Both the position numbers and the translations under genes were made by a program. From positions 16,500 through 80,499 of the forward strand of contig JAHJLI010000008.1 of assembly GCA_018821785.1 (NCBI GenBank): 64,000 nt of DNA, written 5' to 3'. The notes beneath the pieces were generated by a model. That model saw nothing but the letters and a program-made list of their open reading frames with translations, was not told the DNA's origin and searched no databases. Source of the stretch: Pseudomonadota bacterium. GTDB lineage: Bacteria > Desulfobacterota > Desulfobulbia > Desulfobulbales > Desulfocapsaceae. Positions 1,605 through 4,810 of the stretch are shown one piece after another (position 1 is the first letter of the stretch; every line of letters begins with the position of its first letter).

Positions 1605-3086
1605 ATGCAAACAACCCTGATTATATTGGACAGCGTTTCCGACTGGAAACCCTACTATGAAACCGACAGTATCATCACCGCGGGAGAGTACCTGCAAAAC
1701 GAACAATTGAGTCAGGAAGATCTTTTGATCATCAATTTGTGCAGTGATCTCAGCTATAATTCCGAAGGATACTATTGTTCTTTACTTGCTCAGGCGCGCA
1801 AGCACAAAGTCATTCCCTCAAGCGATGCCATCAACAGTCTCGAAAGTGACCGAACCATAAAACTGCAGGGCTTGCTGAAAAAAACCTGCCATTCTTGGGT
1901 CAGCGGAACCACCAGCCTTGACGGCAATGCTTCTCCCCGCACTATTGACATCTTTTTTGGCGATTGCGAAGACCCGTCGCTGAAACGCCTGGCCAAGTTC
2001 ATCTTTGACCAATTTCCTTTTCCCATGCTGAAGGCCACCTTCTCCAGCAGCAAGTTTACCCAGCTTGAACATTTCCGGACCATGGCCCTCAGCGAACTTG
2101 ACGATGCCCAGCAAACCCTTTTTGCCAACGCCATCGACCGTTTTAACAAAAAAATCTGGCGCTACCCAAAAAGCCGGAAAATGTTCGGCTACGACCTGGC
2201 AATTCTGCACGACCCGAAGGAAAAAATTCCCTGCAGCAACGCCTCGGCGCTGAATCTTTTTGTCTCCGAGGCCAAGAAAATGAATATCCACGCCGAACTG
2301 ATCACCGCCGACGATTCGGCTCGGTTGATGGAGTTCGACGCCCTTTTTATCCGGCAAACCACGGCGGTCAACCATATAACCTACCAGCTGGCAAAAAAAG
2401 CCCAACAGGCCGACATGGTGGTAATCGACGACCCGACTTCGATCATCCTCTGCACCAACAAGGTCTACTTGAAAGAACTTCTCGACCGGGAAAAGATCCC
2501 CTGCCCCCGTTCACGACTGGTCTTTAAAACCAAACCGGCGGGTTACGATGAACTGAGCCAGGTCCTTGGCGATACAATGGTGATAAAAGTGCCCGACGGC
2601 TCTTTTTCCGTCGGTGTAACCAAGGTCACTAATCAGCAGGAATATGAAAAAACTCTCGCCGAACTCTTCCTCAGTTCGTCGATTCTTCTGATCCAGGAAT
2701 TCCTACCGACCGACTTTGACTGGCGCATCGGTGTTATCGGGGGCGAATGCATTTATGGCTGCAAGTACTACATGGCTCAGGGCCACTGGCAAATAATCCA
2801 GCACCGGGCAAACCGCATTCCGCGTGGTGGCGCCTTTGAAACCATTCCCCTTTATAGTATCCCCTCCAAGGTGCGAAAACTTGCGATCAAAGCTACCTCC
2901 CTCATCGGCAAGGGCTTGTACGGTGTGGACATCAAAATGGTTGGTGAACAACCGATTATCATCGAGATCAACGACAACCCATCCCTGGAGCATGGGGTCG
3001 AAGATCAAGTCATGGGCAATGAACTGTACCGAATCATCCTCAGGGAATTTGTCGACAGATTGAACAGCAGGCAGCATAAGCGATGA
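1605..3086 (+). CDS. RimK-like ATP-grasp ligase with N-terminal RLAN-type domain
   Basis: 493 aa; N-terminal SDLSYNSEGYYCSLLAQARKHKVIPS is RLAN-like; C-terminal ATP-grasp (VIKVPDGSFSVGV, LIQEFLPTDFDWRIGVIGGE, IEINDNPSLEHGVED). Confidence 0.85.
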   Translation: MQTTLIILDSVSDWKPYYETDSIITAGEYLQNEQLSQEDLLIINLCSDLSYNSEGYYCSLLAQARKHKVIPSSDAINSLESDRTIKLQGLLKKTCHSWVSGTTSLDGNASPRTIDIFFGDCEDPSLKRLAKFIFDQFPFPMLKATFSSSKFTQLEHFRTMALSELDDAQQTLFANAIDRFNKKIWRYPKSRKMFGYDLAILHDPKEKIPCSNASALNLFVSEAKKMNIHAELITADDSARLMEFDALFIRQTTAVNHITYQLAKKAQQADMVVIDDPTSIILCTNKVYLKELLDREKIPCPRSRLVFKTKPAGYDELSQVLGDTMVIKVPDGSFSVGVTKVTNQQEYEKTLAELFLSSSILLIQEFLPTDFDWRIGVIGGECIYGCKYYMAQGHWQIIQHRANRIPRGGAFETIPLYSIPSKVRKLAIKATSLIGKGLYGVDIKMVGEQPIIIEINDNPSLEHGVEDQVMGNELYRIILREFVDRLNSRQHKR

Positions 3087-3588
3087 AAACCACTTTTTTT
3101 TTTTTGCCCCTGCCACGACGAAAGATGTCGACCAGTTGACCGCACTGGAGATCGCTCTCTTCCGCACCGACCGGTGCTCGAAAAAAAGCTTGCGATACCT
3201 GGTACAACATGCCCACGTTATTGTCGCGAGACAACAGGAGACACTGGAGATTGTAGGATATGCCATTTTGCTCGGCCGAAAGAACAGCCGTAAAATGCGG
3301 ATTTATTCGTTTGGCATTGTTCCCGCAGCAAGAAACCGGGGCCTTGCCGGAAAGATGATTGAACATCTTGAAGACATTGTTAAAATTTCACAGTGTCATA
3401 TGCTCACCCTGGAGGTGAGCGACAGCAACACTGCAGCTGTCAATCTGTATAAAAAACACGGTTTTGAACAATATGGCTTTCGCCTTGGCTATTACGAGGA
3501 CGGCGGCCACGCAATTCTTATGCGAAAGCACATACGCGAGGATTCCGGCGACGATGATCATACCCTGTACAAAAGTTGTATACATTAA
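3083..3588 (+). CDS. GNAT family N-acetyltransferase; 5' end frameshifted at a T12 tract (ORF track begins at TTG 3136)
   Basis: GNAT motifs YSFGIVPAARNRGLAGKMIEHL and LEVSDSNTAAVNLYKKHGFE; ATG at 3083 overlaps the upstream TGA (ATGA), but 12 T's put it out of frame. Confidence 0.75.
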
Positions 3589-4144
3589 CGAAGACAAAGG
3601 AAACGGGGTGGTGGCCACCGCAAGAATCCCGCAAGGTACTGTCACCTGGGTTTTTGATGACCTGGATCGGGAGATCCCCATGGACCGGTTGGAGCGCATG
3701 TCCCTGCCATGCCAAGAAGCGACCCTCACCTATTCCTACCGAAACAACAGAGGCCATCTGATTTTTTGCTGGGACAACGAACGGTTCATCAATCACAGCT
3801 TCAAACCAAACTGCTGCCTCACGGCCTACAATTTTGAAATTGCCATCAGAAACATCGAACCAGGCGAGGAGTTGACCAATGATTATGGTGCATTCAATAT
3901 AATCGCCCCCTTTGCTGTCGACTCCGAAGGCAGCGAGCGTACGACCGTTTATCCAGACGATCTTCTCCGCTACAACGGCCTCTGGGATGGTCAGTTGCAA
4001 GAAGCATTTAGCCGTTTTCTCCATGTTGAACAGCCGTTGCGACAAGTTTTCTCACCTGACGTCTGGAAACTTGCCGAATCCATCGCCCGGGGCGAAACTG
4101 CCATGGCATCCATTAGAAATTGTTACTATAGTGAAAGCAGGTAG
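3554..4144 (+). CDS. SET domain protein (predicted protein-lysine methyltransferase)
   Basis: Motifs GNGVVATARIPQGTV, RFINHSFKPNC, IEPGEELTNDYG; start overlaps the GNAT 3' end. Confidence 0.85.
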   Translation: MIIPCTKVVYINEDKGNGVVATARIPQGTVTWVFDDLDREIPMDRLERMSLPCQEATLTYSYRNNRGHLIFCWDNERFINHSFKPNCCLTAYNFEIAIRNIEPGEELTNDYGAFNIIAPFAVDSEGSERTTVYPDDLLRYNGLWDGQLQEAFSRFLHVEQPLRQVFSPDVWKLAESIARGETAMASIRNCYYSESR

Positions 4145-4222
4145 AAACTGCCGCGGATTGGGACGGCAGCTGATCGTACGCCCTCAACCTCCAGGACTCA
4201 TTTAACCTTTTGCCCGGTTTCT

Positions 4223-4810
4223 ATGGTCTCAGACATGAAAGATGAACTCGCCTCTCTTAATATCGGCAGTCAGATTCGCGCCCTGCGCAACAGAAGGGAC
4301 CTTACACTGCAAGATCTGGCTGATCTTACCGGCCTGTCAAAGCCCAACCTCTCGCAGATAGAAAATAATTTGGTTACCCCGCCTATTGCTACCCTGTTGA
4401 AAATCGCCACAGCCCTCGGCGTCTCCATTGGCCATTTTTTCCAGGGAGCAGGCTCGGACAGCAGCATGGTGGTGGTGCGCAAAGCCGACCGTTATGGGGT
4501 CGCCAAGGGACCGCATATCTCCCACATCGGCTATCAGTACGAACCCCTCGCCTATCCAAAAGTCGATAAAACCATGGAACCCTTCATTGTCCACATGGAG
4601 GAACGAGCAGCCGAAGCCATAGTTTACAACAACCACCGCGGCGAGGAGTTTCTCTATGTCCTTGAGGGCAGGCTCGAGTTTCGCCGCGGTGATAATGTGG
4701 TGATCCTTGAGGAAGGGGACAGCCTTTACTTCGACTCGGTTGTTCCGCACGGTTACCGGGGGATCGGTGGTCCTGCGAAAACCTTGGTAATCATCTACAA
4801 ACCGGATTGA
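4223..4810 (+). CDS. XRE-family HTH regulator with C-terminal cupin domain
   Basis: HTH LTLQDLADLTGLSKPNLSQIENN; cupin GEEFLYVLEGRLEFRRGDNVVILEEGDSLYFDSVVPHGY. Confidence 0.9.
   Translation: MVSDMKDELASLNIGSQIRALRNRRDLTLQDLADLTGLSKPNLSQIENNLVTPPIATLLKIATALGVSIGHFFQGAGSDSSMVVVRKADRYGVAKGPHISHIGYQYEPLAYPKVDKTMEPFIVHMEERAAEAIVYNNHRGEEFLYVLEGRLEFRRGDNVVILEEGDSLYFDSVVPHGYRGIGGPAKTLVIIYKPD

Follow-up and report, generated by a model that had tools for sequence, protein, structure and literature searches.

The window, a 64,000-nucleotide stretch of DNA, comes from the genome of a Desulfobulbales-like bacterium (G000), with a fragmented assembly of 5.47 Mb in 315 contigs. It contains the following features at the locus studied:

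352-1512, + strand: citrate synthase II / 2-methylcitrate synthase paralogue (PF00285, 429 bits; TIGR01800, 465.7 bits, cutoff 421.3)
1605-3086, + strand: RLAN + RimK-type ATP-grasp amide ligase, 493 aa (PF14401, 134.4 bits, cutoff 25; PF08443, 54 bits, cutoff 21)
3083-3588, intact frame 3106-3588, + strand: RimI-like GNAT N-acetyltransferase (PF00583, 56.6 bits)
3094-3105, + strand: T12 homopolymer between the ATG at 3083 and the GNAT frame, absent in relatives
3554-4144, + strand: SET-domain lysine methyltransferase, 196 aa (PF00856, 50.2 bits, cutoff 22.4)
4223-4810, + strand: XRE-cupin (PuuR-like) regulator (HTH_3 and Cupin_2), a neighbour and no conserved member

Profile matches confirmed the four genes named in the original prediction (ligase, GNAT, SET and XRE-cupin regulator), and the SET start at 3554 does lie inside the GNAT ORF, whose frame runs to 3588. 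The ligase, GNAT and SET genes form a real, conserved enzyme module. This part of the predicted gene set stood, but the citrate synthase gene at 352-1512, a conserved first gene, had been overlooked. A scan for consensus promoters and terminators returned about twice the chance expectation and gave no usable signal.

In the ligase, the RLAN domain is N-terminal to the ATP-grasp domain, and both are encoded in one ORF (PF14401 and PF08443). The ATP-grasp residues K328, R374, D442, E454 and N456 were invariant in 28 homologous sequences. An AlphaFold model of the protein (pLDDT 79.6) had D-Ala ligases, LysX/ArgX and RimK as its best solved relatives; among named records, the ligase is nearest to one from a Desulfobulbaceae MAG. 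No solved structure covering the RLAN domain was found by sequence, and no description of RLAN ligase function was found in the literature searched. Assignment to RimK, the S6--L-glutamate ligase, was rejected (NF007764, 46.9 bits against a cutoff of 331), as was assignment to the amino-group-carrier ligases LysX/ArgX (TIGR02144, 80 bits against 275.6); no LysW gene was seen in the unit. N-acetylglutaminylglutamine (NAGGN) synthetase was also discarded: its model, TIGR03103, was missing from the ligase matches (best 25 of 26), and the GNAT reached 19 of 569 bits.

The best NCBIfam model of the GNAT was RimI (TIGR01575). Its score of 74.7 bits lies below the cutoff of 86.4, and the protein was therefore not accepted as the S18 N-acetyltransferase RimI; a separate, true RimI is encoded elsewhere in the genome (110.8 bits). 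The protein nevertheless retains the Glu, Tyr and YY motif typical of RimI, with Glu103, Tyr115 and Tyr130 conserved (numbered from 3106).

The ATGA at 3083-3086 had been proposed as the junction of the ligase and GNAT genes. It does overlap the ligase stop, but its ATG is out of the GNAT frame as assembled and so is no GNAT start; reading from this ATG gives MKTTFFFLPLPRRKMSTS* in the assembled sequence. No stop interrupts the GNAT frame from 3064 onwards, and its first ATG, GTG or TTG is the TTG at 3136, from which, we infer, a protein would lack the first strand of the GNAT fold. The T12 run at 3094-3105 lies between the two frames, which would be joined if it had 10 or 13 T. It is the sole T12/A12 tract in the 5.47-Mb assembly besides a tract at a contig end, and the next in length within the window is a run of nine T. 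At the GNAT start, the relatives have at most six consecutive T and an in-frame start, and their N-terminus is short and Phe-rich, for example MEPRFFFVPA (L043) and MRAKTFFAPA (L049). Because A or T runs of at least nine are prone to slippage (PMC1088944), replication slippage with on-off switching, transcriptional slippage and assembly error are all candidate explanations, and the run is a candidate slippage or switching site.

The SET protein had been called a lysine methyltransferase, and at the sequence level its catalytic residues support that call: the RFINHS..PNC and GEELTNDYG motifs are conserved. N80, H81, S82 and Y111 were invariant in 11 homologues; the NHxxxPN and ELxxDY motifs were conserved in 11 sequences, apart from the P of NHxxxPN, which differs in some of them. 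An AlphaFold model built from seven sequences (pLDDT 49.4) was too poor for judging SAM binding or the lysine channel.

The original prediction made the ligase, GNAT and SET enzyme act together, and gene neighbourhoods upheld their linkage, with RLAN-GNAT-SET conserved in three genera. The order citrate synthase-RLAN-GNAT-SET occurs in three genera of the family (G409, G439 and G490, the last two from two further genera), and the four genes give correlated identity matrices (r = 0.83 to 0.97). Among 27 relatives, SET was present in 11 of the 11 genomes with a close ligase (at least 54% identity) and in 0 of the 16 without one (Fisher p 8e-8), and in a panel of 146 genomes from the Desulfobulbales-like order, 52 of them with RLAN, the ligase was found in all 8 genomes with a full-length SET gene versus 44 of the 138 others (p 2e-4); neither p-value is corrected for kinship, and both are optimistic because the compared genomes share ancestry.

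SET was also found with a second kind of RLAN operon. In G523, from another family, SET (2820-3434) and an overlapping GNAT-like gene are followed by C39, RLAN and GCS2 genes (L151:2820-7551); the GNAT-like protein belongs to a different GNAT family, as assigned by eye from sequence and alignment. The same SET-GNAT arrangement occurs on one contig of G434, where the homologue of the G523 GNAT has an apparent in-frame stop and C39-RLAN-GCS2 lies on a separate contig. SET also occurs without RLAN (G018), or alone amid signalling genes (G405, L094:7628-8230), with RLAN apart and lacking a GNAT (L095); the G405 SET protein most resembles its counterpart in G490, which belongs to another genus (72%). 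A SET remnant of 82 residues was seen in G473, from which RLAN is absent (L120, L153), and this looks like joint loss. SET was not beside RLAN in any Bacteroidales RLAN-GNAT locus examined and is therefore dispensable for the core reaction.

The RLAN-GNAT pair itself is distributed more widely. In Bacteroidales, the GNAT gene is directly downstream of the ligase gene in 11 of 13 loci (L050-L055, L057-L060, L068). The pair is also present in two loci of the gammaproteobacterium Panacagrimonas (L065, L067) and in G123 and G151 (L105, L106), and in G186 a GNAT and an RLAN-ATP-grasp protein are fused in one 649-aa ORF (L107:5704-7653), which gives independent support for the pair. Since it spans all these lineages, the RLAN-GNAT link is old and general. 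Another type of RLAN locus combines a C39-like peptidase and a GCS2 ligase, often with an N-formylglutamate amidohydrolase (L061-L063, L069, L101, L103, L108, L111-L113). In G404 (L102), the GNAT that accompanies RLAN is a fusion protein with a papain-like DUF3335 domain.

The flanking genes differ in their association with the unit. The citrate synthase gene, one of four in G000, has counterparts upstream of RLAN in L043-L046, L048, L049, L096, L099, L149 and L150. By coordinates, the gap between its stop codon and the ligase start in L043 is 15 bases, so the two genes plausibly share a transcript that begins with citrate synthase. It does not adjoin the RLAN units of Bacteroidales or G402. 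The XRE-cupin gene adjoins the unit in only four of the sampled genomes (G000, G397, G403 and G406), is on another contig in G402 and G409, and is carried by G404 and G410, both of which lack the SET unit. Adjacency in four sampled genomes only, together with occurrence without the operon, makes XRE-cupin a neighbour and no member of the unit, and the proposal that the cupin senses the product was rejected.

We tentatively read the whole as a synthesis-and-capping module, dedicated to forming amide (peptide) bonds and capping the product, in which the SET enzyme methylates a protein partner; this is a possibility short of an even chance. Judging from its family and conserved residues, the RLAN/RimK-type ligase would convert a carboxylate to an acyl phosphate and join it to an amine, and its product may be an amide-linked peptide or a peptide tag. 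The RimI-like GNAT would then cap this product by placing an acyl group, most likely acetyl, on a free amino group; a published study (PMC4431377) proposes that GNATs cap ATP-grasp peptide products in this way in other operons that pair the two enzymes. The predicted role of the SET enzyme is lysine methylation of a partner protein; the likeliest partner is the ligase, or else the protein or peptide on which it acts. The citrate synthase paralogue may link the unit to acetyl-CoA/citrate metabolism. The two SET-bearing RLAN operon types have GNATs of different families, and the ligase is the sole homologous enzyme in both, so the ligase, its target or its product is a likelier target of SET than any product peculiar to the GNAT described here. 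It is improbable that both parts of a bolder proposal hold, namely that SET is a dedicated part of RLAN amide-ligase systems, where it controls or marks either the ligase or the protein that the ligase targets, and that the GNAT can be switched on and off here via the poly-T run.

The main rival to the synthesis-and-capping module is a pathway that makes a small metabolite, an N-acyl dipeptide or a citrate amide, similar to N-acetylaspartylglutamate or beta-citrylglutamate. The GNAT would acetylate an amino acid first, or the citrate synthase would supply citrate; the ligase would add an amino acid, and SET would regulate one of the enzymes. The RimK-like ligases RIMKLA and RIMKLB, which make N-acetylaspartylglutamate and beta-citrylglutamate, provide a precedent, and both the dedicated citrate synthase paralogue at the operon head and the minimal RLAN-GNAT pair of Bacteroidales fit such a pathway. 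A salinity paper (PMC10219603) lists Collard 2010 as the beta-citrylglutamate reference. However, citrate synthase does not adjoin the units of Bacteroidales and G402, the NAGGN synthetase model is not among the ligase matches listed (best 25 of 26), and the GNAT most resembles RimI, an enzyme that acetylates protein N-termini. We consider this pathway rather unlikely.

Next comes a protein modification set paralogous to RimK and RimI and acting on ribosomal or other tails, with the ligase extending a C-terminus or side chain, the GNAT acetylating the N-terminus and SET methylating a lysine of the same protein. No target gene was seen in the unit, the ligase is far under the RimK S6-ligase cutoff (46.9 of 331) and the GNAT is under the RimI cutoff too, and GCS2 and FGase in the sister operons suggest free peptides. 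This explanation is unlikely, although the ligase and GNAT are both near the ribosomal-protein modifiers RimK and RimI, the true RimI is encoded separately, and SET enzymes modify protein lysines, their established substrates. The genes might also be coincidental neighbours, with RLAN-GNAT the sole functional pairing and with SET and citrate synthase fixed alongside by vertical descent in one family. Linked SET and citrate synthase genes were confined to one order or family among the genomes searched, and the SET genes of G018, without RLAN, and G405, located elsewhere, are consistent with coincidence. It is made very improbable by the co-presence and co-absence of SET and ligase in the relatives panel and by G523, where SET and a GNAT gene adjoin the second RLAN operon type and the genes are ordered differently.

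RLAN ligases are widespread, gut Bacteroides included, and the compact operons narrow the set for co-expression to two to four genes. A native operon setting for a SET enzyme from non-pathogenic bacteria would also open the long-standing question of the role of these enzymes in free-living bacteria to direct tests. No literature joining ATP-grasp, GNAT, SET domain and RimK was found in a search of incomplete coverage; within that coverage, the addition of SET to an RLAN ligase-GNAT pair appears to be unreported. RLAN-GNAT neighbourhoods were reportedly described by Iyer and colleagues in 2009, and the published RLAN family description (the Pfam family text) is said to name GNAT-papain neighbours.

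Compared with known systems, the window ligase shares the ATP-grasp fold and catalytic residues of RimK and LysX/ArgX, with a TM score (target) of 0.74-0.82 for its model; unlike them, it has an extra N-terminal RLAN domain, and its unit has no S6 or LysW partner. The GNAT has the RimI-type Glu and Tyr of the S18-alanine N-acetyltransferase RimI, and N-acetylglutaminylglutamine synthetase (TIGR03103) offers the same logic of GNAT plus ATP-grasp for an N-acetyl peptide. The SET protein has the catalytic motifs of the bacterial SET proteins NUE and RomA, but it is operonic with a ligase and carries no evidence of export or of host histones as targets. The C39 peptidase-RLAN-GCS2-FGase and RLAN-[GNAT + papain-like DUF3335] operons use the same ligase family (36-41% identity), and the latter (G404, L102) shares the GNAT linkage. 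In contrast to these operons, the unit in the window has a stand-alone GNAT of 160 aa without a peptidase domain, hence no GNAT-papain fusion; it lacks GCS2, C39 and FGase, and it adds SET and citrate synthase. The two-gene RLAN-GNAT unit of Bacteroidales likewise has the GNAT gene directly downstream of a ligase that is about 49-55% identical, but contains neither SET nor citrate synthase. The ligase-GNAT pair is thus already known elsewhere, and SET and citrate synthase are the additions here.
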